From the NCBI RefSeq assembly GCF_014646815.1, contig NZ_BMNZ01000005.1, positions 1-64,000 on the forward strand: a DNA stretch of 64,000 bases, given 5' to 3'. This document shows, one piece after another, positions 1,100-34,000 of this stretch. Within the stretch, counting starts at the first letter, position 1. Each line of letters opens with the position of its first letter. Source of the DNA: Terrabacter tumescens (GTDB lineage Bacteria > Actinomycetota > Actinomycetes > Actinomycetales > Dermatophilaceae). The translations under genes were made by a program, and so were the position numbers. Under the pieces are notes generated by a model. That model worked only from the letters and a program-made list of their open reading frames with translations. It ran no database searches and was not told the DNA's origin.

Positions 1100-1900
1100 T
1101 CAGCGGTAGGGCGAGAAGTCCGGCGGGCGCTTCTCGGCAAAGGCCTTGGCGCCCTCCATCCCCTCGTCGGAGTGCACGAAGAGATCCAGCCCCGCGAAGG
1201 CCACGTTACCGAGCCCGGCGAGGTGGTCCGTGTCGGCGTTGAAGGAGTGCTTGAGGAAGCGGATCGCGGTCGGTGAGTAGGATGCGATCTTGCGGGCGTA
1301 CTCTCGGGCTTTGTCGAGCAGCTGGTCGGGGGGCACGACGTCGTTGACCAGACCCCAGCGCTCGGCCGTCTCCGCGTCGTAGAGGTCGAGCAGGAACCAG
1401 ATCTGCCGCGCTCGCTTCTCGCCGACCACCCTTGCCAGGTAGGCGGATCCGTAGCCAGCGTCGAACGAGCCCACCCGCGGGCCGGCCTGTCCGAAGCGGG
1501 CGGTGGACGAGGCGATCGACAGATCGCAGAGCACGTGCAGCACGTGACCGCCACCGACCGCGACCCCGTTGACCGCCGCGATGACCGGCTTGGGCAGGTC
1601 CCGGATCAGCTGATGTAGCGCCTGGATCTCGAAGAGCCCGGACTCGGTCTCCCCGTAGTGCCCGGTCTCAGCGCGCTCCTTGACGTCACCTCCCGCGCAG
1701 AAGGCTTTCTCACCAGCCCCGGTGAGGATGACGGCGGCGACCCGCTTGTCGGCCCAGGCGGTCTTGAAGGCCGCGATCAGCTCGTCGACCGTCCGCCCCC
1801 GGAAGCTGTTGAACCGGTCGGGGCGGTTGATCGTGATGATCGCGAAGGCATCCTCCTCGACTGCGTAGGTGATGTCGGTGAACTCTTCGGGCTTGATCAC
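1100..1900 (-). CDS. MenB/BadI-type crotonase-superfamily ring hydrolase
   Basis: A 266-residue crotonase-fold protein. GAGEKAFCAGGD (about residues 61-72) and GGGHVLHVLCDLSIA (about 116-130) form the acyl-CoA pocket and oxyanion hole. GSFDAGYGSAYLARVVG carries the Asp and Tyr-Gly signature shared by MenB (naphthoyl-CoA synthase) and BadI (2-ketocyclohexanecarboxyl-CoA hydrolase), which run the same Dieckmann/retro-Dieckmann chemistry in opposite directions. No menaquinone genes are nearby. A thiolase, SDRs and an anthranilate-CoA cluster share the region, so hydrolytic opening of a 2-oxocyclohexane-carbonyl-CoA is the likelier role; this is an inference. The GTG start is preceded by AAGGAG about 8 nt upstream. 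It lies downstream of the thiolase on the same strand, separated by a hairpin-rich spacer. Family assignment is firm; MenB versus BadI function is not. Confidence 0.8.
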   Translation of the reverse strand: MIKPEEFTDITYAVEEDAFAIITINRPDRFNSFRGRTVDELIAAFKTAWADKRVAAVILTGAGEKAFCAGGDVKERAETGHYGETESGLFEIQALHQLIRDLPKPVIAAVNGVAVGGGHVLHVLCDLSIASSTARFGQAGPRVGSFDAGYGSAYLARVVGEKRARQIWFLLDLYDAETAERWGLVNDVVPPDQLLDKAREYARKIASYSPTAIRFLKHSFNADTDHLAGLGNVAFAGLDLFVHSDEGMEGAKAFAEKRPPDFSPYR

Positions 1901-1991: not shown

Positions 1992-3173
1992 TCAGTCCAC
2001 ACGCATCAAGACCGCTTGGCCGAGGCCGACCCCGATGCACGCGGCGGCGACGCCGATGCCGCCGCCGCGGCGCTTGAGCTCGCGGCAGAGGTCGACGACG
2101 ACGCGCGGTGCGGAGGCGCCGAGCGGGTGTCCGATGGCGATCGCTCCGCCGTTGACGTTGACCCGGTCGCGGTCGACGTCGGGCAGCTCCGACAGCGTGC
2201 TCAGCACCATCGCGGCGAAGGCCTCGTTGATCTCCCACAGGTCGATGTCCTTATGGGACAGCCCGGCTCGTGCGAGCAGCTTGGCGATCGCGGGGACGGG
2301 GGCAACGGCGAAACGCTCCGGCGACACGGCCACCGTGGCAGAGCCGACGATGGTGCCGAGCGGTTCGGCGCCCAGCTCGGCGGCGACCTCACGGGTGCCG
2401 ACGAAGGCGGCGAGCGCGCCGTCGTTGATCGGTGACGCGTTGGCGGCGGTGACGCTGCCGTCCCGGGTGAAGGCCGGCTTGAGGCGGCCGAGCGACTCGA
2501 CGGTGCTCTCGGGCCGGAGGCTCTCGTCGCGCGTGACGTCGCCGACAGGAAGCACGAAGCCGTCGTGCTTGCCGGCATCATAGGCCGCGGCCACGAGCTC
2601 GTGGGAGCGTGCAGCCCACTCGTCCTGCTCGCCGCGGCCGATACCTTTCTCCTCGGCGACGCCCTGGGCACACTCCCCGAGCGAGCGGGTCCAGTCGTCG
2701 GGGAACTGCGGGTTGACCATGCGCCAGCCCACCGTCGTCTGCTGCAGCGCCATCTGGCGCGGCAGCGCCTCGTCCGGCTTCTGCAGCACGTAGGGGGCGC
2801 GGCTCATCCCCTCGACCCCTCCGGCGACGACGAGGTCGGCGTCTCCGGTGGCGACGGCGCGACCGGCCTGGATGAGCGCCTCGCCGCCCGAGGCGCACAG
2901 CCGGTTGAGGGTCACGCCGGGGACGGTCACCGGCAGGCCTGCAAGCAGGCCGGCCATGCGGGCGACGTTGCGGTTCTCCTCGCCGGCGCCATTGGTGTTG
3001 CCGTAGTAGACGTCCTCGATCCGGGCGGCTTCGAGGCCGGGGTGACGGGAGACGAGCTCGCGCAGGGGCAGCGCCGCGAGGTCGTCGGTGCGGATGCCGG
3101 AGAGTCCGCCGCGGTTCTTGCCGAAGACGGTGCGCACGGCATCGATCAGGACTGCTTCACGTAGCTCGTTCAT
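1992..3173 (-). CDS. Acetyl-CoA acyltransferase (beta-ketoadipyl-CoA-type thiolase)
   Basis: A 393-residue type II thiolase of full length. The acyl-accepting cysteine lies in LNRLCASGGEAL (about residue 88). The catalytic histidine is in NGGAIAIGHPLGASAP and the second cysteine in AACIGVGLGQAVLM near the end. It cleaves beta-ketoacyl-CoA with CoA, giving acetyl-CoA or succinyl-CoA, and resembles PcaF/PaaJ-type enzymes of aromatic degradation. The ATG at 3173 (MNELREAV) was preferred over the TTG three codons upstream because conserved sequence starts there; the ribosome site is weak. It is divergent from the SDR gene at 3221 and shares an operator-like sequence with it. It probably ends the ring-cleavage route by thiolysis. 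Confidence 0.9.
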   Translation of the reverse strand: MNELREAVLIDAVRTVFGKNRGGLSGIRTDDLAALPLRELVSRHPGLEAARIEDVYYGNTNGAGEENRNVARMAGLLAGLPVTVPGVTLNRLCASGGEALIQAGRAVATGDADLVVAGGVEGMSRAPYVLQKPDEALPRQMALQQTTVGWRMVNPQFPDDWTRSLGECAQGVAEEKGIGRGEQDEWAARSHELVAAAYDAGKHDGFVLPVGDVTRDESLRPESTVESLGRLKPAFTRDGSVTAANASPINDGALAAFVGTREVAAELGAEPLGTIVGSATVAVSPERFAVAPVPAIAKLLARAGLSHKDIDLWEINEAFAAMVLSTLSELPDVDRDRVNVNGGAIAIGHPLGASAPRVVVDLCRELKRRGGGIGVAAACIGVGLGQAVLMRVD

Positions 3174-3185
3174 ATATCGCAATCT

Positions 3186-3197
3186 TGACGGTCGTAA
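3186..3197. promoter_or_regulatory. Operator-like inverted repeat between thiolase and SDR genes
   Basis: TGACGGTCGTAA differs by one base from the TGACG-NN-CGTCA palindrome found at seven other upstream regions of this half. It lies in the 47-bp divergent spacer, and TTGACG (3185-3190) could be a -35 box for the SDR operon. No good -10 is visible at the expected distance, so the promoter is left open. Confidence 0.55.
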
Positions 3198-3220
3198 CGG
3201 AAAGATGGCAAGGTCAAGCC

Positions 3221-3988
3221 GTGGCTGACACCCAAACTATGCCTGTGGCGCTCGTCACGGGAGCCGGCCGTGGCATCGGACGCAGTGTCGCATCCCGCCT
3301 CAGCGCGGCGGGTTACCGCGTCGCATTGACGGCTCGCAGCGTGGAGGACTTGGCGGGGACTGCGGCAGAGTGTCCCGGCGAGACGCTCGTGCTCCCTGGC
3401 GACATCACCGACCCCGCCTTCGTCGACCAGCTCTACGCCGACATCGAGGCCGCCTGGGGCGCGGTCTCGGTCCTCGTCGCCAACGCCGGCGCGGGAGTGT
3501 CGGCCTCCGTCGTGCGGACCACCGACGAGGAATGGCAGCGGATGCTCGACCTCAACCTGACCGCCCCCTTCCGCTGCCTCCGGCGGGCGCTGCCCGCGAT
3601 GGTCGAGCGGCGCCACGGGAGGGTCGTCGTCATCGCGTCGGTGGCCGCGAAGATCGGCGAGCCCTACATCAGCGCCTACACAGCGAGCAAGCACGGCGTG
3701 CTCGGCCTGGTGCGGTCCGCCGCTGCCGAGGTGGCGACCAAGGGCGTGACGGTCAACGCGGTCTGCCCTGGCTACGTCGACACCCCGATGACCGACGCGA
3801 CGGTGCGCGGCATCGTCGAGAAGACCGGGCGCTCCGAGCAGGAGGCTCGCAGCGCCCTGGCGTCCAAGCAGCCGATCGGGCGGCTCATCACGCGCGACGA
3901 GGTTGCCGACGCGGTGCTGCTGTGCGTGACCAACGGGGCCATCACCGGCCAAGGCATCAACGTCGACGGAGGAGCCGTCCCTTCATGA
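3221..3988 (+). CDS. Short-chain dehydrogenase/reductase
   Basis: A classical SDR of about 255 residues. It has the glycine-rich NAD(P)-binding motif GAGRGIG, the NAG motif in VANAGAG, and the catalytic set Ser (VIASVAA), Tyr and Lys in YTASK. It ends in the usual INVDGGAVPS substrate-loop/C-terminal motif. It would interconvert a ring or chain ketone and alcohol. The GTG at 3221 has AAGG upstream; an ATG at 3239 is possible but lacks a ribosome site. It overlaps the following RidA-fold gene by 4 nt (ATGA), so the two form an operon. In context, reduction of an oxo-cyclohexane-CoA or hydroxyacyl-CoA intermediate is plausible, but the substrate cannot be read from sequence. Confidence 0.85.
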   Translation: MADTQTMPVALVTGAGRGIGRSVASRLSAAGYRVALTARSVEDLAGTAAECPGETLVLPGDITDPAFVDQLYADIEAAWGAVSVLVANAGAGVSASVVRTTDEEWQRMLDLNLTAPFRCLRRALPAMVERRHGRVVVIASVAAKIGEPYISAYTASKHGVLGLVRSAAAEVATKGVTVNAVCPGYVDTPMTDATVRGIVEKTGRSEQEARSALASKQPIGRLITRDEVADAVLLCVTNGAITGQGINVDGGAVPS

Positions 3989-4395
3989 CCACCCATTCGC
4001 ACCTCGACTACGTCAACCCGCCGGAGCTCGGCAGGCCGAGCGGGTTCAGTCACGCAGTGAGCGGGGTCGGTCGGCAGGTCTTCCTCGCGGGCCAAACCGC
4101 CCTCAATCCCGAGGGCATCATCGTCGGCGAGACCGTCGTCGAGCAGTTCGAGACGGCGCTGACCTCGTTGCTCGCGGCGCTTCGCGCGGCCGGAGGCGGC
4201 CCCGAGCACCTCGCCAGCCTCACGATCTACATCGTCGACATGGACGACTACAAGGCCAACGCACGCGAGATCGGCCGGGTCTGGAAGCGGCTCGTCGGCG
4301 CGAGCTACCCGGCGATGGCGGGGATCGGCGTCTCCCGGCTCTGGGACAAGGAGGCGCTCGTCGAGGTGCAGGGGCACGCCGTCATCGCCGACTGA
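3985..4395 (+). CDS. RidA/YjgF-superfamily protein lacking the canonical arginine
   Basis: A 136-residue protein of the Rid (YjgF/YER057c) fold, with the strand FLAGQTALNPEGIIVG near residue 35 and a C-terminal strand ALVEVQGHAVIAD. RidA proteins hydrolyse enamines and imines. The 2-aminobenzoyl-CoA monooxygenase/reductase product is an enamine, so a deaminating role in ammonia release would fit the locus. However, the catalytic arginine of RidA (in PARS/T) is replaced here by YPAMAG. It therefore belongs to one of the arginine-less Rid subfamilies, whose activity is not settled. It overlaps the SDR stop by 4 nt and is translationally coupled to it. The fold is certain; the reaction is inference. 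Confidence 0.85.
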   Translation: MTTHSHLDYVNPPELGRPSGFSHAVSGVGRQVFLAGQTALNPEGIIVGETVVEQFETALTSLLAALRAAGGGPEHLASLTIYIVDMDDYKANAREIGRVWKRLVGASYPAMAGIGVSRLWDKEALVEVQGHAVIAD

Positions 4396-5557: not shown

Positions 5558-6655
5558 TCACCTCGGTGCGCGCAGTCCCTTGGCCTCGAGCCGGGGCATG
5601 ACCTCCTGGGCGAAGTACTCGAGCTCGCCGACGTAGTCGACGAAGGCCAGCGTCATGCCGCCGAAGCCCGCCTTGGCGTAGCGCTCGATCTCGTCGGCGA
5701 CGTCGTCGGGCGAGCCGATGAGTGGGCACGTGCCGTGTCCGGCGGCGAAGCGCGACCGGAACATCTCGAGCATCTCCGGCGTGAAGGACTGCGCGTGCAG
5801 CCCCTGGAGCCGCATCAGGTTGTCGACCGCGTCCCAGTCGGCGTTCTCGTCGGCGTAGTAGTGCAGGTACTCCTCCGCCTCCTTCGCCGTCGGGCGACAG
5901 ACGACGTGCGAGGGCGTGAGGACACCGGTCGTGCGGCCCTTGGCGGCGGCATCTGCCTTCACGGTGTCGACGACCTGAGCGCCGTCCTCGGGACCCGCGA
6001 CGATGGTGAAGACGAAATCGGCGTTCCGGGCGGCATACTCGCGTCCTTGCGTGCTCGACCCCGCGTTGAGGATCGGCAGGCGCCCAGCGGCCGGCTTCGG
6101 CACGGACTCCACGCCCTGGAGGTTCCAGAAGCGGCCGGGCAGGTCGGTGCGCTCCCCGGGGGCCCAGAGCGTGCTGACGACGTCGATCCACTCCTGGGCG
6201 AGGGCATAGCGGGAGTCGTGGTCCTGCGGGAGGTCCACGCCCATGGCCCGGTACTCCGGCTCGTTCCAGCCCGCGACGACGTTGAGGCCGATGCGGCCCG
6301 GCGCCATCTGGTCGATGGTGGCCAGCTGCTTCGCGGTGACGACGGGGTGGTTGAAAGCCGTGTGGATCGTCGTGAAGACGTTGAGCCGCTGGGTGTTCGA
6401 CAGCAGCCCGGCCGCCCACGGGATCGGCTCGAGGACGCCCTCGTGGAAGTTCGTCGCGCCGCCGTAGCCGATCCACCGGGCGATCGGGAGCATGAAGTCG
6501 ATGCCGACCTCGTCGGCGAGCCTGCCGAGCCGCAGGTTGTCCTCCCACGAGGCGCTCCAGCGCTCCGGGATCGTCGTGACGGCGAGTCCGCCGGAGCAGT
6601 TCGAGGAGAACAGCCCGAGTCGGAAGTCCGTGGTGTCAAGGATGGGAATGCTCAT
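5558..6655 (-). CDS. RutA-like LLM-class flavin-dependent monooxygenase
   Basis: A 365-residue TIM-barrel enzyme of the bacterial luciferase-like class, closest by eye to RutA-type pyrimidine oxygenases. Shared segments include GGATNFHEGVLEPIPWAAGL, IDQMAPGRIGLNVVAGW, a PILNAGSS strand, and GSPDDVADEIERYAKAGFGG near the C-terminus. It would use FMNH2 and O2 to oxygenate a substrate. The reduced flavin is probably supplied by the flavin reductase encoded 11 bp upstream. The ATG at 6655 follows GAGAGG at a suitable distance. No other pyrimidine-utilisation (rut) genes are present, so a heteroaromatic substrate of this island, such as an indole or lactam, is more likely than uracil; that substrate is a guess. 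Confidence 0.85.
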   Translation of the reverse strand: MSIPILDTTDFRLGLFSSNCSGGLAVTTIPERWSASWEDNLRLGRLADEVGIDFMLPIARWIGYGGATNFHEGVLEPIPWAAGLLSNTQRLNVFTTIHTAFNHPVVTAKQLATIDQMAPGRIGLNVVAGWNEPEYRAMGVDLPQDHDSRYALAQEWIDVVSTLWAPGERTDLPGRFWNLQGVESVPKPAAGRLPILNAGSSTQGREYAARNADFVFTIVAGPEDGAQVVDTVKADAAAKGRTTGVLTPSHVVCRPTAKEAEEYLHYYADENADWDAVDNLMRLQGLHAQSFTPEMLEMFRSRFAAGHGTCPLIGSPDDVADEIERYAKAGFGGMTLAFVDYVGELEYFAQEVMPRLEAKGLRAPR

Positions 6656-6666
6656 GGGGGTGCCTC

Positions 6667-7233
6667 TCACAGTGCTTTCAACAAGGGGGTGGGGGGTGCG
6701 GCGCTGGGGCGGGGCAGCGTCGTGACGGCCTGGGCCGTGGAGTGCAGCTCGGCGAGCTCGGCCAGGGTGCGGGGCTGCCCGGCGTGGAAGAGCAGTGCAG
6801 ACACTGGTCCGTCCTCGACCTCGATGACCTCGGCGATGAGGTAGGTGTGGTCGCCGGCCTCGACCTGCTTCCACATCTGGCACTCGAGCCGCACGGATGC
6901 CTCGCTGATCAGCGGCATGCCGAACGGTCCCGGCTCCCAGTCGAGCCCGTCGAACTTGTCGCCTCCACTGCGGGCGAAGCGCTTGACGAGGTCCGCCTGG
7001 CCCTCGCTGACGACGTGCACGACATAACCGGGGGCCTCGACCCACTCGTCGTAGCGGGTGGACCGCACGTCGACGCACCAGCCGACGAGCGGCGGGTCAA
7101 GAGAGACGGAATGGAAGCTGTTGACGGCTTTGCCGAGCGGCAGCCCGTCGCGTCCGACCGTGGTGATCACGGCGACGCCGGTGGTCCAGCGCGAGAGCAG
7201 CCGACGCAGCGTCTGCGGGTCCTTGTGGTTCAC
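6667..7233 (-). CDS. Flavin reductase (RutF/HpaC-type) partner of the monooxygenase
   Basis: A 188-residue protein of the flavin reductase-like FMN-binding split-barrel family. LLSRWTTGVAVITTVG and the SFHSVSLDPPLVGWCVD segment form the flavin site. It reduces FMN or FAD with NAD(P)H and passes the reduced flavin to a two-component monooxygenase. The GTG at 7233 is chosen because AAGGAGG lies 8 nt upstream; a GTG 7 codons earlier would place that site inside the gene. The LLM gene follows 11 bp downstream, so the pair is an operon. The upstream region carries two adjoining palindromes at 7250-7271. Confidence 0.9.
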   Translation of the reverse strand: MNHKDPQTLRRLLSRWTTGVAVITTVGRDGLPLGKAVNSFHSVSLDPPLVGWCVDVRSTRYDEWVEAPGYVVHVVSEGQADLVKRFARSGGDKFDGLDWEPGPFGMPLISEASVRLECQMWKQVEAGDHTYLIAEVIEVEDGPVSALLFHAGQPRTLAELAELHSTAQAVTTLPRPSAAPPTPLLKAL

Positions 7234-7249
7234 GATCGCACCTCCTTGA

Positions 7250-7271
7250 GTCACAACTGTGACGGTCGTCA
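7250..7271. promoter_or_regulatory. Double palindrome upstream of the flavin reductase-monooxygenase operon
   Basis: GTCACAACTGTGAC (7250-7263) is a perfect inverted repeat and runs into TGACGGTCGTCA (7260-7271), a perfect copy of the island palindrome. Together they fill the region just upstream of the ribosome site of the flavin reductase gene on the minus strand. A repressor bound here would block the two-gene operon. Confidence 0.6.
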
Positions 7272-7403
7272 GGGAAGCGCGACTAGCCAGAATGCGTCAG
7301 GCAGTATCCGGATCGCGTCAGCAAGGTCCTTCGGGGCGGAGGTCGAGCTCTCGACCGGGGCAAAGTGCACCTTCGACGCGGGACCAGCGCACCCGCGGCG
7401 GGG

Positions 7404-9008
7404 TCAGCGAGCGAGCCGCTGGCGGAGCGAGGCGAGGCGCCCCTCCCCCACCCCGATGAGCGACTGCGCGACGAGGTGTCCCGAGCCACCCCCGAGACCG
7501 GGCCCCGGGTGGGTCGCCGCACCGATGTGCCACACGCCGGGCACGGCGGTCCGGTGCCGCGACGTCGTCGGACCCGGGCGCCACACGAGGTTCTGGTCGA
7601 GCTCGGCGGACCCGCAATAGGGGTCGCCGTCGACGCAGTTGACGTTGGCGCGGGTCAGGTCGACGGGCGTCAGCGCCTTCCACTCGAGCACGTTCGCCCT
7701 GGTCCCGGGCGCCTGCTCCTCGACGAGGTCGAGCACCCGGTCGACGTAGCCCCGCGTCAGCTCGGGCGTCCACCCGGCGCCCGTGCCGAGCTCACCCCGC
7801 GAGTCACCGGTGGGCGCGAAGGGCACCTCCTGCAGCTGCAGCCACAGCATCCCCGCACCGTCGGGGCAGCGCGTGGGGTCGAGCAGCTGCTGCTGCCCGA
7901 CCACGACGGTCGGTCGCGCGGGTAGCAGGCCTGCCTCCGCCTGCGCACACGCGATGCCCGTCGACGCCGACCCGTCGGACAGGTGCACCAGCGGGATGCC
8001 GTCCAGCGCGCTCTCGCTCCACTGGAGCGGTCTCGACAGGGCCACGTGCACCTGCATCGCGGCGCGCCCGTAGCGGTACTGCCGCGCCTCCGTCCGCGCC
8101 TGGACCGGGGCGTCGGGGAGCAGGTCGTCGTAGAGCGCAGTAGGGGTCACCGATGCCACGACGGCCCTCGATGCCCGGATGGTCTCGCCACCGGCGACGA
8201 CCCCGCTGGCGCGGCCGCCGGTCAGGACGATGCGATCCACGGGAGTGCCGAGTCGGATGTCGACCCCGCGCTCGCGCAGCAGTGCCTCGAAGGCGCCGAC
8301 GAAGTTGCCCTGGCCACCGACGACGACCGGCAGGCCGGCGCCGTGCATGGTGGCGGCCAGGAGCGGGATCATCAGGCCCCCGCTGGCGTTGTCGGGCGCG
8401 AGCCCGGCGTGCAGCAGCCACGGCGCCCAGAGGTGGTCGACCTCCCGGCCCTCGAAGTGCCGCGCCGTCCAGCGCCGGCCGCTGGCAGCGGTGTCGCGCG
8501 CCCAGGCCTCGAGCCGCGCCTGCCGCCCGCGCCGGGCCAGCGTGGCGAGCGGCCTGAGCGCCGGTAGTGCGCGCAGCTCGGTCCCGAGCAGGCTGCCGAT
8601 GACGTCGATGTCGGCGCCGATGCGCCCCAGCATCTCCGAGTAGGCCGCCCGGTCGCTCTCAACGGCAAAGGCGGCCGCCGTCACCTCGGGGTCCCGGTGG
8701 GCGACGACGTGGCGACCGTCGCGGCCCACCGACGCCGTGACCGCGCCGTCCGTGTTGGCGTAGGCGAGACCGTGACGCGCGAGATCGTCACCCAGGGCGG
8801 CATACGCCCCGCCCGTGACGAACAACGGATGCCACGACGAGTACGTGTCGTGGACGTAGCCCAGCCGGGTCAGCTCGTCGGACGCCATGAAGCCGCCGAG
8901 GCGGTCGTTGCGCTCGACCAGGCAGACCGACATGCCGGCCCCGGACAGCTCGGCCGCGGCGACGAGACCGTTGATCCCCGAGCCGATGACGACGACGTCG
9001 TAGGTCAC
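7404..9008 (-). CDS. Phytoene-desaturase-like FAD oxidoreductase
   Basis: A 534-residue flavoprotein with an N-terminal Rossmann motif (VVVIGSGINGLVAAAEL, dinucleotide-binding GxGxxG) and a C-terminal FAD-binding segment (VPGVWHIGAATHPGPGLGGG). It belongs to the phytoene dehydrogenase/amine-oxidase-like superfamily, whose members oxidise or isomerise hydrophobic substrates. The GTG start overlaps the FMO stop by 4 nt, and the gene is third in an SDR-FMO-oxidoreductase operon. A distant paralogue lies at 31440-33026. The operon neighbours suggest sequential oxidation of one compound, but no carotenoid genes are present, so carotenoid desaturation is unlikely. Substrate unknown. Confidence 0.8.
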   Translation of the reverse strand: MTYDVVVIGSGINGLVAAAELSGAGMSVCLVERNDRLGGFMASDELTRLGYVHDTYSSWHPLFVTGGAYAALGDDLARHGLAYANTDGAVTASVGRDGRHVVAHRDPEVTAAAFAVESDRAAYSEMLGRIGADIDVIGSLLGTELRALPALRPLATLARRGRQARLEAWARDTAASGRRWTARHFEGREVDHLWAPWLLHAGLAPDNASGGLMIPLLAATMHGAGLPVVVGGQGNFVGAFEALLRERGVDIRLGTPVDRIVLTGGRASGVVAGGETIRASRAVVASVTPTALYDDLLPDAPVQARTEARQYRYGRAAMQVHVALSRPLQWSESALDGIPLVHLSDGSASTGIACAQAEAGLLPARPTVVVGQQQLLDPTRCPDGAGMLWLQLQEVPFAPTGDSRGELGTGAGWTPELTRGYVDRVLDLVEEQAPGTRANVLEWKALTPVDLTRANVNCVDGDPYCGSAELDQNLVWRPGPTTSRHRTAVPGVWHIGAATHPGPGLGGGSGHLVAQSLIGVGEGRLASLRQRLAR

Positions 9009-10516
9009 CTGCCGACCTTCTCACGCTGGCGCCGGTCACGCCGCTCCAGCAGCTTCGTCGTGATCTGGCGGTAGTCCGACGGGCGCACCGGCATCAGCCA
9101 CTCACGGCGGCGCACCGACGCCGGCATGGTGATGCCGATCTCCTCGAGCACCTCGTCGACGTTGTGCATCGAGAAGGGGATCAGGTTGGTGCCGCGCGCA
9201 TGGTGACCCTCGGTGCGCTGCTCCATCCACCGCAGCCGCTCGGCGACCTGACGGCGCCGCTCCTCGACCGGCGGCAGGTGGCTCTCCCCCATCAGGTGGT
9301 TGGCGATCCAGAGGGCCGCCACCTCCGCCGACAGCGGCGAGAAGAAGGAGGAGTTGTAGCCGCAGAAGGCGAGTCCCGGCACCTCGTGGGGAAGGATGAA
9401 GCGGTAGAGCTCGAAGTTGCCGCGCTCATCGGTGATCCGGTCCTGCACGTCCTTGGACAGGAACGGCACGCCCTGCTGCCAGCCCGTGCCGGCGATGACG
9501 ACGTCCACCGGCACCGTCGCCCCGTTGGACAGGTGCGCGACAGTGCGTCCGTCCTCGACGCCGAGCCGCTCGATCTGGGCGTCACGCATGACCTTCAGCT
9601 GACCCGCGTCGACCTTCTCGAAGAAGCCGTCGGTGGTCAGGCTCACCGTGCTGCGGGCGATCCGCTCGAAGTCGCCCGCCGGCACGAGCCCGTTCTTCTC
9701 CAGCTTGAGCTGCTTCGTCGCGACCGACTGGAGCGAGCCGAGCATGCCGTTGCGCACGCCCTTGCCCTTGCCGTGCATGAACTTCTCCATGCCCTCGAGC
9801 CGCTGGTACTCGAAGAGCGCCTCGCCCATCCGGGTCAGCATGAGGTACTTGAAGTTGAGCACGCCCTGGATCTTCTTCGGCATCTTCCAGATGAGCTGAC
9901 GCGCGACGACCATCGTGCTCCTGGCCGACCCCGAGATGGCCGCCGCGATGTCGCAGGAGGACTTGCCGTAGCCGACGACGAGCACGTCCTTGCCGGCGAC
10001 CTCCGTGAGGTCGTGGACGTCGCTGGGCGCGCACAGCCGCCCGCCGGCCGCGGCGAACTCCGAGGCTCCCTCGTAGGCCGGGATGTTGGGCTGGGAGAAG
10101 ATGCCGTTGGCGACGACGACGTAGTCCACCTCGTCGGTGTGCTCGACGCCGGCCCCGTCCTTGGACCGCACCGTCCAGCGCGGCTCCTCGCCCGACTCGT
10201 CGAGATCGGCTGCGACGACCTCCGTGCCCAGGCGCAGCTTGTCCTGCAGACGGAACGTGGCGGCATACGACTCGAGGTACTGCTGCACCTGCTCGCCGCT
10301 GGGCCACTCGGGGTAGCTCTTGGGCATCGGCAGGTCGGACAGGTGGTAGGTGCCCTTGTCGTTCTGGGTCGACAGGCCCGGGTAGCGGCGGGTGCGGCTC
10401 CACACGCCGCCGACGTCGGGCGCCTTCTCGTAGATCGTCACGTCGTGCCCGAACTGCGTCAGCACCTTGCCTGCGGCCAGCCCGGCGAAACCGGCTCCGA
10501 TGATCGCGATCCTCAT
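9005..10516 (-). CDS. Flavin-containing monooxygenase
   Basis: A 503-residue class-B flavoprotein monooxygenase. It has the FAD site GAGFAG (residues 7-12) and a second Rossmann motif GYGKSSCDIA (about 182). An FMO-type linker region is seen around YPEWPSGEQVQQYLESYAA, and a late GTGWQ segment is typical of FMO/Baeyer-Villiger relatives. It inserts one oxygen atom into a nitrogen, sulfur or carbonyl substrate using NADPH and O2. It starts 1 nt after the SDR stop and overlaps the next gene by 4 nt, so all three genes are one transcript. Whether it is an N-oxygenase or a Baeyer-Villiger enzyme cannot be decided by eye. Confidence 0.88.
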   Translation of the reverse strand: MRIAIIGAGFAGLAAGKVLTQFGHDVTIYEKAPDVGGVWSRTRRYPGLSTQNDKGTYHLSDLPMPKSYPEWPSGEQVQQYLESYAATFRLQDKLRLGTEVVAADLDESGEEPRWTVRSKDGAGVEHTDEVDYVVVANGIFSQPNIPAYEGASEFAAAGGRLCAPSDVHDLTEVAGKDVLVVGYGKSSCDIAAAISGSARSTMVVARQLIWKMPKKIQGVLNFKYLMLTRMGEALFEYQRLEGMEKFMHGKGKGVRNGMLGSLQSVATKQLKLEKNGLVPAGDFERIARSTVSLTTDGFFEKVDAGQLKVMRDAQIERLGVEDGRTVAHLSNGATVPVDVVIAGTGWQQGVPFLSKDVQDRITDERGNFELYRFILPHEVPGLAFCGYNSSFFSPLSAEVAALWIANHLMGESHLPPVEERRRQVAERLRWMEQRTEGHHARGTNLIPFSMHNVDEVLEEIGITMPASVRRREWLMPVRPSDYRQITTKLLERRDRRQREKVGR

Positions 10517-12547: not shown

Positions 12548-13783
12548 CTACCCGGGTGTGCGCAACAGGTCGCGGTGCCGTTGCAGACCCGCCAGGAAGG
12601 CGTCGATGTCCTCCTCCGTGTTGTAGCAGTGCGGGGCGATCCGCACGTTGGAGTCCCTCGAGCTGACGACGATGTCCTCGGACTTGAGGACCTCGACCGC
12701 GGCGTGCTCGTCCGTGACGGCGACGGCGAGCATCGGGCCATGGCTCGCTTCCGGCGTCATCACCGTGCCACCCATCTCCTCGACCCCGGCCCGGAGCCGC
12801 GAGAGAAGTACCTCGACGTGGTCTCGGGTCTCGACGAGGCCGATGTCCGACATCAGGCGCAAGCCCGCCGCCGCCGCGAAGAGGCTGGGCACCGGCGGGG
12901 TGCCCGACTCGAAGCGGCGCGCATCCTTGGCGGGGTCGTAGTCGTGGATGTCCATCGACCAGATGTCCCGAGCTGCCATCCACCCGGTCTGCACCGGGAT
13001 GATGTGCCCGGTCGTCTCGGGATTGGCATAGAGGAAGGCCACGCCCGGTGAGCCGAGAAGGTACTTGAGGAAGCCGCCGGTCACGATGTCGGCGGGCGTC
13101 TGCGCCAGGTCGAAGGGCATCCCCCCGAAGGACTGGTAGACATCGACGTGCACGAGGATCCCGCGTGCGTGCGCCAGCTCGATGAGCGGGCGGACATCGA
13201 CACGGGCGCCGTTGCGGTAGCAGACCTCCGTCACGGAGAGGATCGCAGTGCGTTCGTCGAGGGCTGCCTCGACAGTTGCCAGATCAAGAGTGAGGTCGGA
13301 ACTGGTCGGGAGGTGGACGACGCGCGCCCCCCGGCGTTCCTGGGCGTGCCAGATCTGGCCCACGGTCGGGAACTCGAGCTCGGTGGTGACTATCGTGTCG
13401 CGGCCGTCGGCGAAGTCGAGACCACTCGCCAGCGCCGAGATCCCCGCCGATTCCGACGTCGTGATGGCGCAGGCGTCGGCTGGCGCGCCGATGAGTGTGG
13501 CCAGCAGCTGACGCACGTCCTCCTGTCTGCTCACCCAGTACTCCCAGAGCGAGCCCTCGTCATCCATGCCGTCCAGATAGACGGCATACGACTGTCTCAC
13601 CGCGTCGGACAGGGCACCCTGCGAGCAGGCGTTGAGGTAGGCCTTGTGGGCCAGGACGGGGAACCGGTGACGGATCGCCTCGCCCACCCCGATCGAGGTG
13701 CGCTCGGCACCGGTCGTGCCGGTGGGTCCGGTCGTGCCGGACATTCCCGTGGTGGCAGTCTGGTCCCTGCGCTCAGCGGCCAA
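12548..13783 (-). CDS. Class V aminotransferase-fold PLP enzyme
   Basis: About 411 residues of the aminotransferase class V fold that includes kynureninase, cysteine desulfurase and isopenicillin epimerase. The PLP lysine lies in TGGFLKYLLGSPG (about residue 240), after the cofactor aspartate region LVHVDVYQSFG. The TTG start at 13783 follows GAGGAGG by 7 nt but overlaps the ABC ATPase gene by 11 nt; an ATG at 13744 is the alternative. The first 30 residues are Thr/Gly-rich and not conserved-looking. It is the last gene of the first Liv-importer operon, so it probably acts on the imported compound. Next to an anthranilate pathway, a kynureninase-like cleavage is attractive, but the kynureninase signature is not clear, so the substrate is open. 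Confidence 0.75.
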   Translation of the reverse strand: MAAERRDQTATTGMSGTTGPTGTTGAERTSIGVGEAIRHRFPVLAHKAYLNACSQGALSDAVRQSYAVYLDGMDDEGSLWEYWVSRQEDVRQLLATLIGAPADACAITTSESAGISALASGLDFADGRDTIVTTELEFPTVGQIWHAQERRGARVVHLPTSSDLTLDLATVEAALDERTAILSVTEVCYRNGARVDVRPLIELAHARGILVHVDVYQSFGGMPFDLAQTPADIVTGGFLKYLLGSPGVAFLYANPETTGHIIPVQTGWMAARDIWSMDIHDYDPAKDARRFESGTPPVPSLFAAAAGLRLMSDIGLVETRDHVEVLLSRLRAGVEEMGGTVMTPEASHGPMLAVAVTDEHAAVEVLKSEDIVVSSRDSNVRIAPHCYNTEEDIDAFLAGLQRHRDLLRTPG

Positions 13784-14537
13784 GGTAGGCCCTCCTCAGT
13801 TCATCGTGGTTCGAGAGCTCCTGCGCGGATCCGCGCAGGACGATACGTCCGGTCTGCAGCACGTAGCCCCGGTCGGCGATGGACAGCGCCATGTTGGCGT
13901 TCTGTTCCACGATGAGCATCGACACGCCGTCTCGGTGAAGGGTCTCGATCAGCTCGAAGCTCTGCTCCACGAGGCGCGGCGAGAGCCCCATCGACGGCTC
14001 GTCCATGAGCATCAGCGATGGTCTCGACATCAGCGCCCTGCCCATCGCGACCATCTGCTGCTCACCGCCGGAGAGGGTCCCGGCGATCTGCGCGCTGCGT
14101 TGCTCGAGCAGGGGGAAGAGCTCGAAGACGCGGTCGAGGTCGGCAGGATCGGGTGCGCCGCGAACCCAAGCCCCGATCTGGAGGTTCTCGAGCACTGTCA
14201 TGGGCGCGAAGAGCCGGCGGTTCTCGGGGACCACCGCCATGCCGCGCCTGACCCGTTCTGACGTCGGCCGGCTCGTGACGTCGACCCCGTCGAAGGTGAC
14301 AGTGCCGGTGCGCGGGGCAACGAGCCCGAGCGCGGTCTTCAGCGTCGTCGACTTGCCACAGGCGTTGCCGCCGAGGAGGCAGACCAGCTCGCCCTTGCCG
14401 ACGACGAGGTTGACGTCCTCGAGTATGTGGACCGGCCCGTAGAACGTGTTGATCCCGGACAGCTGGAGGAGGGGAGTGAGCGGGCCCGGGGGCCCGTCAG
14501 ATAGGGCCGCGCCGGCGGGCTCGGGCTGGGCTCTCAT
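13773..14537 (-). CDS. Liv-type ABC transporter ATP-binding protein (LivF-like), importer 1
   Basis: A 254-residue ABC ATPase. The Walker A motif reads GGNACGKST, with Ala-Cys where GAGKS is usual but still matching GxxxxGK(S/T). The signature is LSGGEQQMVAMGRAL and the Walker B is LMLMDEPSMGL. The LivF hallmark IVEQNANMALSIADRGYVLQTG follows. It powers uptake together with the LivG-like partner. It overlaps livG upstream by 4 nt and the PLP-enzyme gene downstream by 11 nt, so all are on one transcript. Confidence 0.92.
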   Translation of the reverse strand: MRAQPEPAGAALSDGPPGPLTPLLQLSGINTFYGPVHILEDVNLVVGKGELVCLLGGNACGKSTTLKTALGLVAPRTGTVTFDGVDVTSRPTSERVRRGMAVVPENRRLFAPMTVLENLQIGAWVRGAPDPADLDRVFELFPLLEQRSAQIAGTLSGGEQQMVAMGRALMSRPSLMLMDEPSMGLSPRLVEQSFELIETLHRDGVSMLIVEQNANMALSIADRGYVLQTGRIVLRGSAQELSNHDELRRAYLGR

Positions 14538-15322
14538 TTCGTCCCTGCCGTGCCGCGACCGAGGTACGACTCGACGACGTGCGGGTCGGTCGCGACGGCC
14601 GCATAGTTTCCTTCGGCGATCTTCACCCCGTGGTCGAGCGCGACGACGCGGTCACTGACGCCTTCGACGACGTGCATGTCGTGCTCGATGATCACGATGG
14701 TGTGACCGCGCTCCCCACGCAATCGCGCCACAACCTCGGTGATCTCGTGGGTCTCCTTGGGGTTCATCCCCGCGGCGGGCTCGTCGAGCAGCAGGATCGT
14801 GGCACCGGTGGCCATCGCACGGGCGATCTCGAGGCGGCGACGGTTGGCGTAGGACAGGCTGTAGGCCGGCTGTTCCCACCGGTAGCCCATCAGCCTGGAG
14901 CCGAAGAAGGAGAGCAGCTCCTTGGCGTCTTCCCGCACACGGGCCTCCTCCCGCCGGGCCCGAGGGAGGCCGAGCGCGGAGGCGACGAGACCGGCATGAG
15001 TTCGGCCGTACATCGCGGCCATCACGTTGTCGATGACGGTGAGGTTGTGAAACAGCCGCACGTTCTGGAAGGTCCGCGCCACACCCTTGGTCGCGATCGT
15101 CGACGGGGCGAGACCGGTCACGTCGTTGCCCTCGACGAGGATGCGTCCCGAGTCGGGCCGATAGACGCCGGTGATGATGTTGAAGAGCGTGGTCTTGCCG
15201 GCACCGTTCGGCCCGATGACGCTGACGATCTCTTGGGGGGAGACCTCGATGCTGAGGTCGGAGATGGAGACCAGGCCACCGAAGCGCTTGGTCACCTGCT
15301 CGACAGCCAGTGCAACGGTCAT
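14534..15322 (-). CDS. Liv-type ABC transporter ATP-binding protein (LivG-like), importer 1
   Basis: 262 residues from the ATG at 15322 (MTVALAVEQVTKRFGG). Walker A is GPNGAGKTT. The LivG-type Q-loop region ARTFQNVRLFHNLTV follows, and Walker B is ILLLDEPAAGMNP with HDM as the switch histidine. The signature motif is degenerate: YSLSYANRRRLEIARAM in place of LSGGQ, which is normal for LivG. The start codon overlaps the permease stop (TGATG) and the stop overlaps livF by 4 nt. Confidence 0.92.
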   Translation of the reverse strand: MTVALAVEQVTKRFGGLVSISDLSIEVSPQEIVSVIGPNGAGKTTLFNIITGVYRPDSGRILVEGNDVTGLAPSTIATKGVARTFQNVRLFHNLTVIDNVMAAMYGRTHAGLVASALGLPRARREEARVREDAKELLSFFGSRLMGYRWEQPAYSLSYANRRRLEIARAMATGATILLLDEPAAGMNPKETHEITEVVARLRGERGHTIVIIEHDMHVVEGVSDRVVALDHGVKIAEGNYAAVATDPHVVESYLGRGTAGTK

Positions 15323-16758
15323 CAGAGGACCTCCACCTGGCGCCGGCCGAAGAGGCCCTGCGGACGCACGATCATCAGCACGATGAGCAGTGCACCGATG
15401 AGCAGCTGGCGGGTGATGCTCGGGACGTCCGCCAGACGCACGAACCACACGAAGATGCTGAGCCACACGATGGCCGGGAGCAGGATCGGCCGGACTCTCG
15501 TCCCGACCAGGGTGAGGACCGCGAGGAGGACGACGAGCCCGACGAAGCCGAGGTTGCCCCAGAGCACCCGGTCCTGCGGTACGAAGAGCCAGTGCCCCAG
15601 CAACGTGCTCACGGGGCCGCTCGTCCAGGCGCTCGCCGGCACGCCCTGGACGTGCAGCAGCGTGAAGAGCAGGTTCATCACGAAACCGAACACCACCGTT
15701 GCGACCACGACGATGATGCGGTCGCGCCACGATCGGACCGCCAGCGCGAGCCCGGCGACGAGGAGCAGGACGAAGACCATCTCGCTGTAGGAAGGCTCAC
15801 GCAGCGCCTCGGGGAGGAGGCTGAGCAGGGCCGCGCCGATGAGAGCGCCCTTGAGGCTGCCACTGCCGCCGAGGATGACCGCCGCATACAGCAGAATCAG
15901 GAGCGGGAGGTCGAAGCTGCTCGGGAACACGCCACGCTGGACCGCGGCGAAGACCGTTCCCGCCAGCCCGGCGATACCGGCCCCCACCACGAAGGCCATG
16001 ATCTTCAGTCGGTTGACCGGCATCGTCATCGCCTCGGCCGCAAGCGGGTCCTGCCCGACTGCCTTCCAGGCGCGACCGATGCGCGAGCCGTCGAGTCGGC
16101 GAACCGCCAGGGCAAGGAGGACGACGAGGACGACGAGCAGGTAGTAGTACCACCGGTCGGAGCTGAACTCGACCCCGAGGAACGAGAAGCGGTCGACGTC
16201 GGTGATGCCGTTGGTGCCGCCTGTGAGGTCGACCTGCTCCGCACGACCGGGCACCGTGATCGCGTCACCAGACAAGGCGAACTCCACGAACATCTGCCCG
16301 AAGAAGAGCGTGACGATCGCGAGGTAGTCACCGAGCAGTCGGCGCGCCGCAAGGCCGAGCACGAGACCGAAGATCGACACCGCGGCGACGACGACCGGGA
16401 CCGCGACGACGGTCGGGAGATGGACACCGAACTTGTCGGAGGCCAGCATCGCGAAGCCGTACGCGCCGAGGCCGTAGAAGGCCACGTAACCGATGTCGAG
16501 CAGGCCGGCATACCCCACGACGAGGTTGAGCCCGAGGGCGAGCATCAGGAAGAGGCCGAGGTTGACTCCGACCCGCATGAGGTAGGTGGACCCGATGAGT
16601 GGCAGGACGACGGCGACGAGGACGGCGATGCTGCCCCACACCCACCAGGGCAGCCGGCCGAACGTCCGGGCGACCGGGCCCTGAACCTGACCTGAGGTCC
16701 GCCCTTCGTGGGCGGCCACCCACTCGTCGGTGCCGATCGCCAGCGACTCCTCAGCCAT
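15322..16758 (-). CDS. Liv-type ABC transporter permease (LivM-like) with an inserted membrane block, importer 1
   Basis: 478 residues, about 130 to 150 longer than usual for LivM. The core permease (about 45-340) has the typical LNLVVGYAGLLDIGYVAFYGLGAY and LYAAVILGGSGSLKGALIGA segments. Normally this leads straight to the C-terminal IVRPQGLFG motif. Here a block of roughly 120 residues with about four extra hydrophobic segments (about 345-460) lies before LIVLMIVRPQGLFGRR. The ATG at 16758 lies 2 nt after the LivH stop and has GAAGGTG upstream. It forms the channel with LivH for an aromatic or amino-acid-like substrate. Confidence 0.9.
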   Translation of the reverse strand: MAEESLAIGTDEWVAAHEGRTSGQVQGPVARTFGRLPWWVWGSIAVLVAVVLPLIGSTYLMRVGVNLGLFLMLALGLNLVVGYAGLLDIGYVAFYGLGAYGFAMLASDKFGVHLPTVVAVPVVVAAVSIFGLVLGLAARRLLGDYLAIVTLFFGQMFVEFALSGDAITVPGRAEQVDLTGGTNGITDVDRFSFLGVEFSSDRWYYYLLVVLVVLLALAVRRLDGSRIGRAWKAVGQDPLAAEAMTMPVNRLKIMAFVVGAGIAGLAGTVFAAVQRGVFPSSFDLPLLILLYAAVILGGSGSLKGALIGAALLSLLPEALREPSYSEMVFVLLLVAGLALAVRSWRDRIIVVVATVVFGFVMNLLFTLLHVQGVPASAWTSGPVSTLLGHWLFVPQDRVLWGNLGFVGLVVLLAVLTLVGTRVRPILLPAIVWLSIFVWFVRLADVPSITRQLLIGALLIVLMIVRPQGLFGRRQVEVL

Positions 16759-16760
16759 GG

Positions 16761-17675
16761 TCACACCTTCACGATCGCGCGTGTGCCGAGCAGGCCACGA
16801 GGCTTGAGAAGCATGACGAGGATGAGCACGAGGAAGGACAGCACACTGGCGAAGTTCGCCGAGACGTACGCCGTCGTGAAGGACTCGATGAGACCGATGA
16901 GCAGACCACCGAGCATCGCACCCGGGATGGAGCCGATCCCCCCGACGACCGCCGCCGTGAAGCCCTTGAGGCCGGCGAGAAATCCCATGTAGTTGTTGAC
17001 GTTGAAGAAGACCAGTCCGACCATCACCCCGGCGGCACCTGCGAGCGCCGACGCGACGAAGAAGACCAGGACGATCACCTTGTTGACGTCGATGCCCATC
17101 ATCACCGCCGCGTCCCGGTCATACGCGACCGCCCGCATCCCGCGACCGAACGCGGTCTTCTCCACGAGGCGGGTGAGCCCCACCATGAGGATGATGGCCA
17201 GCACGAGCACAAGGATGCGCACCGGGTTGACCTGGACCCCAGCAACCTGCGGCCCGGCCCCGCTCCAGTAGCGGGGCGTGTCGTAGGAGCGGACCCGCGA
17301 ACCGAACAGGAGCAGCACAGCGTTCTGCAGGAAGAGCGAGACACCCAGGGCGCTGATGAGCGGCGCGATCCTCGTCGATTCGCGCAGGGGCCGATAGGCG
17401 AACCGCTCGATCCCGACGCCGAGCAGCCCGCTGACGACCATGGCTGCGAGGAACATCGCGACGATCATCAGCCACACCGGGACGATCGGCTTGCCGGGCC
17501 CCCCGAGGCCGACCATCACGAAGAACCCGGTGAACGCGCCCACCATGTATACCTCGCCGTGGGCGAAGTTGAGCAGCTGCAGCACGCCATAGATCAGGGT
17601 GTAGCCGAGTGCGATGAGGGCGTAGACCCCTCCCAACGTCAGCCCGTTGACGAGTTGCTGGACGAAGAGTTCCAC
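16761..17675 (-). CDS. Liv-type ABC transporter permease (LivH-like), importer 1
   Basis: A 304-residue membrane protein. It has the LivH N-terminus (LVNGLTLGGVYALIALGYTLIYGVL), the NFAHGE motif near residue 37, and the GGIGSIPGAMLGGLLIGLIE segment near the end. About eight membrane spans are expected. It follows the binding-protein gene by 9 bp and precedes livM by 2 nt. The pair forms the translocation channel of importer 1. Confidence 0.93.
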   Translation of the reverse strand: MELFVQQLVNGLTLGGVYALIALGYTLIYGVLQLLNFAHGEVYMVGAFTGFFVMVGLGGPGKPIVPVWLMIVAMFLAAMVVSGLLGVGIERFAYRPLRESTRIAPLISALGVSLFLQNAVLLLFGSRVRSYDTPRYWSGAGPQVAGVQVNPVRILVLVLAIILMVGLTRLVEKTAFGRGMRAVAYDRDAAVMMGIDVNKVIVLVFFVASALAGAAGVMVGLVFFNVNNYMGFLAGLKGFTAAVVGGIGSIPGAMLGGLLIGLIESFTTAYVSANFASVLSFLVLILVMLLKPRGLLGTRAIVKV

Positions 17676-17684
17676 ATCGTTCTC

Positions 17685-18845
17685 TCAGTTGACCAGCGCG
17701 GGCTTGCGGTCATCGCCGATCTTGAAGATGAAGAACTTGGCGTCCTTGACGTCGCCCTTGTCGGTGAAGGTGATCGGCTGACCGAGGATGGAGTCCGGGA
17801 TGCTCACACCCAGCACGTTCGAGCTCGTCTTGGCGCGGTCTGCAGTGCCTGTGCAGTCCTTCGCCGCCGCGGTCATGATGACCTGGGTCGCGACGTAGGT
17901 GGGCGGCCCGAACGTGCCGAACTCGCCGTACTTGGCCGTGTAGGCGTCGGCGACCGCCTTCGAGCTCGGGATGCCCTTGATGTCCGGGGCGAACGAGCTG
18001 ACGTACTGGCCGGGGACGTCGAAGTCGGCCGAGAACGAACCGTCGGAGCCGAAAACGACCGCCTTCTTGCTCTGTTGCTGAAGCGTGTTGGCGAGCGCCT
18101 TGGTGTTCGCGGCGATCTGGAAGGTCGCGAAGACCACCGAGGTGTCTGCATCCACGAGCGCGACGACGGAGGAGTAGTCCGGCTGCTTCTGGCTGACTTG
18201 GATGCGCTTGACGTCGACGCCCTTCTCCTTGAGTGCCTTCTCCACCGCGGACGAGAGCCCCGCTCCGTAGGACGTCTTCTCCTCGACGATGACGACCTTC
18301 TTGGCACCGAGCTTCGACACCATGAAGTCGGCATCGGTGGGTCCCTGGACGTCGTCGGTCGGGATCACTCGGGCGAACGTCGGAAAGGCGCCGCTCGTCA
18401 GGCTGGTGCGGGTGGCGGATGGGGATACGAATGCCATCTTCGCATCGGCGAAGGCGGGGCCCACGGACTCCACCTCCTGGCTCCCCGCGGGGCCGACGAC
18501 GCCGATGACGGCCTGGTTGGAGACGAGCTGTGGGGCGACCGTGCTGGCCTGACCGGCGTCGAGCTGGGTGTCGCCCTCGACGATGGAGAAGTTCGTGCCG
18601 TTCTTGGCGTTGTAGTCGGAGACGGCAAGCTTGGCGAAGTTGAGCTGTTCGCCGCCGATCGCAGCCGCGCCCCCGGTGATCGGCGCCATCACCCCGATCG
18701 CGCCTGTGCACGGGGTTCCCGACGTGGAACCGCCCGCCATGGCCGGTGCCGTCGAGGTCGCCGCCGGAGTCTCGCCGCCCGCGCAGGCGGCGAGCGCCAT
18801 ACCGGACGCCATCATCCCGACCAGAATCTTTGTTGCTGCGCGCAT
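17685..18845 (-). CDS. Liv-type periplasmic-binding lipoprotein, importer 1
   Basis: A 386-residue type I substrate-binding protein. It has a lipoprotein signal with lipobox LAAC at about residues 18-21, an Ala/Thr/Ser-rich linker, and then the binding fold from TGAIGVMAPITGG. GVVGPAGSQEVESV marks the hinge-side ligand pocket seen in Leu/Ile/Val- and aromatic-acid-binding relatives. It captures the substrate for LivHMGF and is the first gene of the operon that ends with the PLP enzyme. GAAGGG lies 8 nt before the ATG. The strongest palindrome of the window (18869-18893) lies in its promoter region. The local genes suggest an aromatic or indolic ligand, but that is an inference. Confidence 0.9.
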   Translation of the reverse strand: MRAATKILVGMMASGMALAACAGGETPAATSTAPAMAGGSTSGTPCTGAIGVMAPITGGAAAIGGEQLNFAKLAVSDYNAKNGTNFSIVEGDTQLDAGQASTVAPQLVSNQAVIGVVGPAGSQEVESVGPAFADAKMAFVSPSATRTSLTSGAFPTFARVIPTDDVQGPTDADFMVSKLGAKKVVIVEEKTSYGAGLSSAVEKALKEKGVDVKRIQVSQKQPDYSSVVALVDADTSVVFATFQIAANTKALANTLQQQSKKAVVFGSDGSFSADFDVPGQYVSSFAPDIKGIPSSKAVADAYTAKYGEFGTFGPPTYVATQVIMTAAAKDCTGTADRAKTSSNVLGVSIPDSILGQPITFTDKGDVKDAKFFIFKIGDDRKPALVN

Positions 18846-21855: not shown

Positions 21856-21960
21856 TCCCGCCGGGTGCGTCACGGCCGGGTCGGTCGGCGCGGTGGGCCG
21901 GGTGGACCCCGGCCCACCGCGCCCCCCTCTGGCCCACCCATCGAGAAGCATGACATTTCG

Positions 21961-21988
21961 TTGACGCTCGTCACTGGGGCGATATAGC
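21961..21988 (+). promoter_or_regulatory. Promoter with overlapping operator for the oxidoreductase operon
   Basis: A -35 box TTGACG (21961-21966) and a -10 box TATAGC (21983-21988) are separated by 16 nt. The perfect palindrome TGACG-CT-CGTCA (21962-21973) lies on the -35 box, so a bound protein would exclude RNA polymerase. The gene starts at 22036 with GGAGG upstream. Confidence 0.65.
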
Positions 21989-22035
21989 GTCAGCCTGAGC
22001 CAGTGCGCACACTGGTGACGAGGCGGAGGAGCATC

Positions 22036-31298: not shown

Positions 31299-31352
31299 GC
31301 CCACACCATTCTCCACCGCGACTTCGACTCGGTCGTATGTCGCATTGATTAG

Positions 31353-31388
31353 TGTCGTCATCGTTACGACATGCGCACGGCGTGTCAA
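31353..31388 (-). promoter_or_regulatory. Importer 2 promoter with TGTCGT-N7-ACGACA palindrome
   Basis: On the minus strand a consensus -35 box TTGACA (31388-31383) is followed after 16 nt by TAACGA as a possible -10. The inverted repeat TGTCGT (31353-31358) and ACGACA (31366-31371) straddles that -10. The site differs from the TGACG-NN-CGTCA palindrome, so importer 2 may answer to another repressor. The divergent FAD oxidoreductase gene shares this region. Confidence 0.55.
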
Positions 31389-31439
31389 GCACCTATCTTG
31401 ATCCTTGAATCGGTCTGTCGAAACGGAGGCGAAAGAGCC

Positions 31440-33993: not shown

Positions 33994-34000
33994 TGGCCGG

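Follow-up and report, generated by a model that had tools for sequence, protein, structure and literature searches.

Rid proteins of the RidA type carry an arginine that is described as contacting the carboxylate of the ligand (PMC4433059), and the subfamilies without it, Rid4-7, have been presumed not to hydrolyse imines (PMC4433059, PMC8113886); the function of the arginine-less subfamilies was called unknown in 2015 (PMC4433059). It may be noted that the Rid activity tests described in these two papers used free amino-acid-derived imines and aminoacrylates, which are substrates with a free carboxylate (PMC4433059, PMC8113886). RutC, the Rid of a catabolic operon, is described as deaminating a beta-enamine in a step that also proceeds without RutC, and a strain lacking RutC is reported to have kept its growth on uracil (PMC8113886). 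On the side of the pathways, a curated survey of catabolism states that tryptophan degradation via anthraniloyl-CoA monooxygenase/reductase was omitted for lack of knowledge (PMC9007349). Here we report on an arginine-less Rid encoded in a stretch of 64,000 nucleotides from Terrabacter tumescens (contig NZ_BMNZ01000005.1, positions 1 to 64,000; the whole stretch is called the window), and on its link to the 2-aminobenzoyl-CoA monooxygenase/reductase (ACMR) encoded in the same window. From the data given below we infer, with reasonable though not high confidence, that this Rid is the enzyme of the anthraniloyl-CoA pathway that hydrolyses the enamine product of ACMR to a beta-keto thioester. The two genes, and three codons of the Rid gene used for comparison with RidA, are as follows.

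3985-4395, forward strand: Rid-fold protein, arginine-less, proposed enamine-CoA thioester deaminase (PF01042, 136 aa)
4273-4275, forward strand: codon of Gly97, which aligns with RidA Asn88 (Gly is found here in 45 of the 50 Rids from ACMR genomes and in all 21 sequences of a cross-phylum set)
4315-4317, forward strand: codon of Met111, at the position of RidA Arg105
4363-4365, forward strand: codon of Glu127, which aligns with RidA Glu120 (kept without exception in two alignments of relatives, 69 of 69 and 21 of 21, the window Rid being counted in both)
36517-38913, forward strand: ACMR (NF006101, 1221 bits against a cut-off of 1078)

The open reading frame (ORF) at 3985-4395 runs from an ATG start to a TGA stop. 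An earlier note, made from the letters of the window, had read its product as a Rid-fold protein with YPAMAG in place of PAR(S/T), devoid of the catalytic arginine, in a pathway where an oxygenase/reductase produces an enamine. All of this was borne out: the PF01042 match is 68 bits (Pfam cut-off 27.3) and the fold was confirmed by AlphaFold2 structure prediction, the motif YPAMAGIGV aligns with FPARSCVEV of E. coli RidA so that Met111 falls on Arg105, and the oxygenase/reductase is the ACMR, to which the Rid is tied by co-occurrence as described below. The archetypal RidA model TIGR00004 gave 45.7 bits, less than its cut-off of 106.25, and the archetypal Arg105 is likewise missing, its place being taken by Met111. 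The whole genome has three PF01042 matches. A second arginine-less Rid of the same genome, with Ser at 105, lies on contig 6 (1459-1866), the ACMR being on a different contig.

The AlphaFold2 monomer (window 3985-4392; 42 sequences) is a confident Rid fold with a mean pLDDT (predicted local distance difference test) of 94.3, and the best 50 rows of each of two structure searches, by VIA-align and Foldseek, were all of Rid/YjgF/L-PSP type by name. The nearest solved fold by VIA-align is YyfB of Yersinia pestis (5v4f; Z 19.2, root-mean-square deviation (rmsd) 1.7 over 128 residues; Z of the runner-up 14.3). By Foldseek E-value 5v4f ranks third, and its full-length rmsd is 1.8 against about 9-12 for most canonical Rid structures. 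In the model this high canonical rmsd looks like the effect of a different placement of the N-terminal strand; the N-terminal part, which carries the aromatic residue of position 17, seems to take the position that it has in 5v4f, which most canonical Rids do not share. Rid5 and Rid6 are described in print as having no Arg105, Phe or Tyr at 17, a variable position 88 and a kept Glu (PMC4433059, PMC7221256). The window Rid, with Met at 105, Phe at 17, Gly at 88 and Glu at 120, fits Rid5/Rid6 by this printed description, as distinct from the CDD models that define them.

The ACMR of the window is the sole match of the genome over the NF006101 cut-off, the NCBI name of this type being bifunctional salicylyl-CoA 5-hydroxylase/oxidoreductase. 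As the Rid and ACMR genes are separated by 32.2 kb in the window, other genomes were needed to establish a link between them. We screened 396 genomes from the phylum for ACMR at E <= 1e-150 and for the Rid type at E <= 1e-25 (a threshold fixed beforehand and the only one used) with a profile of seven sequences, namely the window Rid and six plasmid Rids. Four of these six have an annotated ACMR next to them, a fifth has as neighbour an ACMR that scores under the cut-off, and the sixth comes from a plasmid lacking ACMR; since most of them adjoin ACMR, the profile was chosen mostly with the pathway in view. The Rid type was found in 48 of 48 ACMR genomes against 13 of 348 others (Fisher one-sided p = 3e-50). 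Both genes are on the same contig in 34 of the 48 genomes and on different contigs in the other 14, each of which has at least 20 contigs. Distances of 1.6-6.6 kb were obtained for 33 of the 34 same-contig pairs, the window being the exception. We also collected 80 named loci encoding close Rid relatives, 49 of them with a full 20 kb; ACMR is contained in 47 of these 49 and in 66 of the 80.

Among plasmid records, 95 match the Rid and 95 match ACMR, with 82 of each among the matches listed. Both lists share 64 records. In 62 of them the starts of the two genes are no more than 12.1 kb apart, while the remaining two are circular and, on inspection by hand, have the genes close across the origin, at 4.5 and 12.1 kb. 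Eighteen listed records of each kind have no listed partner and up to 13 partners of each kind are outside the matches listed, so at least 5 plasmids of each kind are singles. When six Rid plasmids off the ACMR list were searched whole, ACMR was found in three, one of them haloarchaeal and under the curated cut-off. Annotated loci with both genes are found, among others, on pAL1 of Arthrobacter Rue61a, which degrades quinaldine, on a Rhodococcus BG43 plasmid with a quinolone dioxygenase gene, in Deinococcus and Ensifer, and in Ruegeria pomeroyi, whose cluster has a gene of the tryptophan 2,3-dioxygenase family next to it. The functional link between Rid and ACMR is thus a strong one. The 32-kb distance might suggest that the window Rid is a chance neighbour unrelated to the ACMR, but the co-occurrence (48/48 vs 13/348), the 20-kb loci and the clustering on plasmids of other hosts rule this out to the extent that comparing genomes allows, and we give it practically no weight.

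For the residue pattern, we aligned 69 Rids (the window Rid, the six plasmid Rids and 62 of the phylum set) with E. coli RidA, TdcF and RutC. Arginine occurs at position 105 in none of the 69, and Glu120 and Gly31 are kept in all. On dividing them by source, the 50 Rids of the 48 ACMR genomes have at this position 35 Met, 4 Ile, 4 Thr, 3 Val, 2 Leu, 1 Lys and 1 Ser, with Glu120 in 50 of 50 and Gly at 88 in 45; the six plasmid Rids have 5 Met and 1 Leu, and the 13 Rids of genomes without ACMR have 9 Ser, 3 Met and 1 Thr. A second alignment of 21 sequences covers Actinomycetota, Pseudomonadota, Deinococcota, Gemmatimonadota and haloarchaea; 18 of them share a record with ACMR (15 known from the lists or the window itself, 3 from the whole-plasmid search), and the other 3 come from plasmids that lack it. 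Here position 105 is Met in 19, Val in 1 and Leu in 1, position 88 is Gly and position 120 Glu in 21 of 21, and Gly31 is invariant. Residues of the 80 loci were not used for Met conservation because the search pattern for these loci itself contained YPAMAGIG. As a control, other PF01042 proteins from 11 ACMR genomes of our choice were taken (19 of 24 paralogues, the five without a locus being left out); Arg is present in 11 of 19, with Ala in 4, Ser in 2, Gln in 1 and one unaligned. Since the paralogues have Arg in just 11 of 19, arginine loss alone is not unique to the clade. By these alignments it is the large apolar residue at 105 together with the kept glutamate that is typical of the ACMR-linked clade, and the loss of arginine, being common to this clade across five phyla, is not a peculiarity of the window protein.

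In a tree of 88 rows and 133 columns, with many weak forks, the ACMR clade is a 75-row group with support of 96/99. The nine Ser-bearing Rids of genomes without ACMR fall outside it, four Rids from such genomes fall inside, and the contig 6 Rid is also inside, on a long and unreliable branch. The nine genomes with the Ser version (PASSMVEV), two of which have a partial match to the reductase half of ACMR alone, belong to one family, and their Rids make up a sister group.

The surroundings of the two genes in the window were then as follows.

1100-1900, reverse strand: crotonase-family enzyme of MenB/BadI type, which we propose as the hydrolase that opens the ring of the beta-keto thioester (present at 41 of 80 related loci)
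1992-3182, reverse strand: thiolase, nearest to 3-oxoadipyl-CoA thiolase models and under their cut-offs (in 7 of 80 related loci)
3185-3988, forward strand: short-chain dehydrogenase/reductase (SDR) ORF, directly upstream of the Rid gene, whose start its stop overlaps; translation may in fact begin further inside the ORF
33050-33913, reverse strand: PaaX-type regulator (homologue in 59 of 80 related loci)
33455-35680, forward strand: ORF with an AMP-forming aryl-CoA ligase, presumed 2-aminobenzoate-CoA ligase (matched residues 220-723; true start inside the ORF)

The SDR has a homologue in 52 of the 80 related loci, at a median end-to-end offset of 395 bp from the Rid, and an SDR is also found near the ACMR besides the aryl-CoA ligase and the PaaX-type regulator. 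The thiolase and crotonase-family genes diverge from the SDR on the opposite strand. The crotonase-family enzyme is below both equivalog cut-offs (badI 285.6 vs 467.6 bits, menB 310.6 vs 342.7) and has a stretch SFDAGYG in common with the solved naphthoate synthase 2uzf. Another protein of the genome exceeds the menB cut-off (414 bits vs 342.7), and therefore the enzyme at 1100-1900 is a second, different member.

Downstream of the Rid, at 5558-10516 on the reverse strand, are a luciferase-like monooxygenase, a flavin reductase, a CrtO-like FAD oxidoreductase and an FMO-type monooxygenase. The first two (5558-7254) were considered as the oxygenase/reductase partner and rejected; with homologues in only 3/80 and 1/80 of the related loci, they are not a regular partner of the Rid. 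Directly after the ACMR, at 38906-44166 on the forward strand, an ADP-forming acyl-CoA synthetase, an AMP-forming ligase and a methylmalonyl-CoA mutase-type protein are encoded. A cyclase-family gene (PF04199) followed by a thiamine pyrophosphate (TPP) enzyme related to the alpha subunit of indolepyruvate ferredoxin oxidoreductase lies at 21082-24282 on the forward strand; in the Deinococcus cluster cyclase-family and TPP-binding genes stand directly before the Rid, and homologues of the window cyclase are present in 10 of the 80 Rid loci. Two sets resembling branched-chain-type ABC transporters, possibly for uptake of aromatic substrates, occupy 13773-18845 and 26584-31790 on the reverse strand (the scan covered three members of the first set and, of the second, the binding protein; the rest were judged by the appearance of their ORFs).

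An AraC-type regulator adjoins the Rid in the window. As family and structure names include endoribonuclease and translation inhibitor, and nuclease activity of Rid proteins is a subject of reports, the Rid might be a regulatory or RNA-acting protein that controls the operon. This is very improbable, because the Rid goes with a single metabolic enzyme in different phyla, and the regulators vary from cluster to cluster, being of PaaX type (Rue61a and Rhodococcus included), of MarR type (Deinococcus, Ensifer, Ruegeria pomeroyi) or, beside the window Rid, of AraC type.

The steps that we propose for the window Rid are these. ACMR yields an enamine in which the carboxyl group is bound as a CoA thioester. 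The Rid, a trimer if it is like its family, may bind this product, or its SDR-reduced form, in the cleft between subunits, where the conserved glutamate (Glu127; RidA Glu120) would place a water molecule. Hydrolysis of the enamine would release ammonia and leave the beta-keto thioester 2,5-dioxocyclohexanecarboxyl-CoA. The carboxylate-clamping arginine of RidA has given way, mostly to Met. With the carboxyl held as a CoA thioester there is no free carboxylate in the ACMR product, so the arginine would not be needed, and an apolar residue at 105 is what would be expected of a substrate that offers no carboxylate to clamp. The beta-keto thioester would then suit the neighbouring MenB/BadI-type enzyme, with the ring probably opened by a retro-Claisen step. 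BadI acts on beta-keto thioesters by retro-Claisen cleavage. Of the three options left by the earlier note (another residue takes over, the protein has a different role such as ligand binding, or the amine is lost by another route), the first is favoured in a refined form, whereby the protein probably still deaminates, keeps the glutamate and takes a CoA-thioester substrate. With slightly less confidence, and little better than an even chance, we extend this to the arginine-less clade of Actinomycetota, Pseudomonadota, Deinococcota, Gemmatimonadota and haloarchaea as a dedicated CoA-thioester enamine hydrolase which supplies the deamination step that was missing from aerobic anthranilate degradation, the arginine being a carboxylate clamp and no catalytic requirement.

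Work on Rue61a is described as having detected the CoA ester of an acid C7H8O4 solely in cells grown on anthranilate, and its authors state that it might be cyclohexanedione-carboxyl-CoA (PMC3534580). C7H8O4 is the composition of the deaminated ACMR product, which speaks for the proposed hydrolysis, as does the precedent of RutC as a Rid that acts on a beta-enamine of a catabolic pathway. In the same cells hydroxyanthraniloyl-CoA is presumed, and it reportedly forms when NADH is short (PMC3534580). The Rid may act on this or another intermediate or side product of the pathway, such as a later enamine or imine, or tautomerise instead of deaminating, and the variation of downstream enzymes among clusters would agree with this. 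However, the ACMR reaction, with an enamine as main product, is the step common to ACMR clusters, and the characterised Rid deaminases hydrolyse an enamine or imine (PMC4433059, PMC8113886), which makes such a role rather unlikely.

Several points weigh against deamination by the window Rid and its clade. Arg-to-Ala variants of RidA and RutC are described as inactive or nearly so (PMC4433059, PMC8113886), and one study saw little change when the RidA glutamate was replaced by Ala (PMC4433059), for which reason the kept glutamate argues only weakly for a catalytic role. YyfB, the closest solved relative, which we take by matching names to be Y3550, is reported to have had no RidA function (PMC7221256). 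The deaminated CoA ester of Rue61a may be an artefact, as the samples are described as quenched in formic acid and the ACMR product as unstable below pH 5 (PMC3534580). Our literature search, outside which the Azoarcus evansii cluster paper (PMC95408) and the pAL1 sequence paper fall, found no biochemical test of the ACMR-linked clade and nothing that joins arginine-less Rids to the anthraniloyl-CoA pathway. Also, the BadI-like partner is present in only 41 of the 80 loci, a hydratase of another family being encoded in the clusters of Ensifer and Deinococcus, so the logic of ring opening is not universal. The window itself has 32 kb between Rid and ACMR, and three of the six Rid plasmids searched whole (Sulfitobacter THAF37, Microvirga lotononidis and Sphingomonas daechungensis) have no ACMR on the plasmid. 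Of the 13 genomes with the Rid and no ACMR, the four inside the ACMR clade are drafts, 83-93% complete, with no ACMR match at E 1e-20; they remain either counter-examples or assembly gaps, and one of them has a branch of nearly zero length amid genomes of a different family, a hint that its contig may be mis-assigned.

As of 2021, deaminase activity is stated to have been shown for no Rid4-7 member (PMC8113886). This, along with a site that is now mostly apolar, is what would be seen if the Rid were a non-catalytic partner serving to protect, channel or sense the ACMR product or a CoA ester to which it binds, the deamination being spontaneous or due to another enzyme. Yet the glutamate and the ligand-loop glycine (RidA Gly31) are invariant in 21 sequences of five phyla, and no second RidA-family gene is annotated in nine plasmid stretches with 9-12 kb flanks, whose gene tables are incomplete. 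We regard a non-catalytic role as unlikely, though a shade less so than action on another intermediate.

If hydrolysis of the enamine by the window Rid is true, the arginine-less Rids gain a function and the anthraniloyl-CoA pathway gains its deaminase, and the arginine, which is held in print to determine Rid deaminase activity, would be a carboxylate clamp. The ACMR-tied clade offers one specific substrate that bears on both the Rid and the pathway questions, and the puzzle of the arginine has a simple candidate answer in which catalysis is predicted.

On comparison with the known systems, Y3550 is also without Arg, has Phe at 17 and is printed as conforming to Rid5 or Rid6, but it belongs to another operon, with an aromatic aminotransferase and another Rid (PMC7221256). 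RutC, the 3-aminoacrylate deaminase of the rut operon, is alike in that a Rid is encoded with a flavin monooxygenase and reductase, and in that it acts on a beta-enamine which water also hydrolyses; unlike the window Rid it is described as needing its Arg104, and its substrate has a free carboxylate (PMC8113886). RidA (YjgF, EC 3.5.99.10) of Salmonella and E. coli shares with the window Rid the PF01042 fold, Glu at 120 and Gly at 31, as well as the enamine chemistry expected of the associated pathway. The differences are Met for Arg105 and Gly for Asn88 in the window Rid, and an expected substrate that is a CoA thioester without a free carboxylate. Free carboxylates are present in the substrate of the 2-aminomuconate deaminase AmnE. 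AmnE differs from the window Rid by a conserved cleft arginine, Arg117 (PMC6742747), which probably corresponds to RidA Arg105, and is alike in being a Rid-fold deaminase of aromatic amine catabolism (PMC6742747; Z 13.6).
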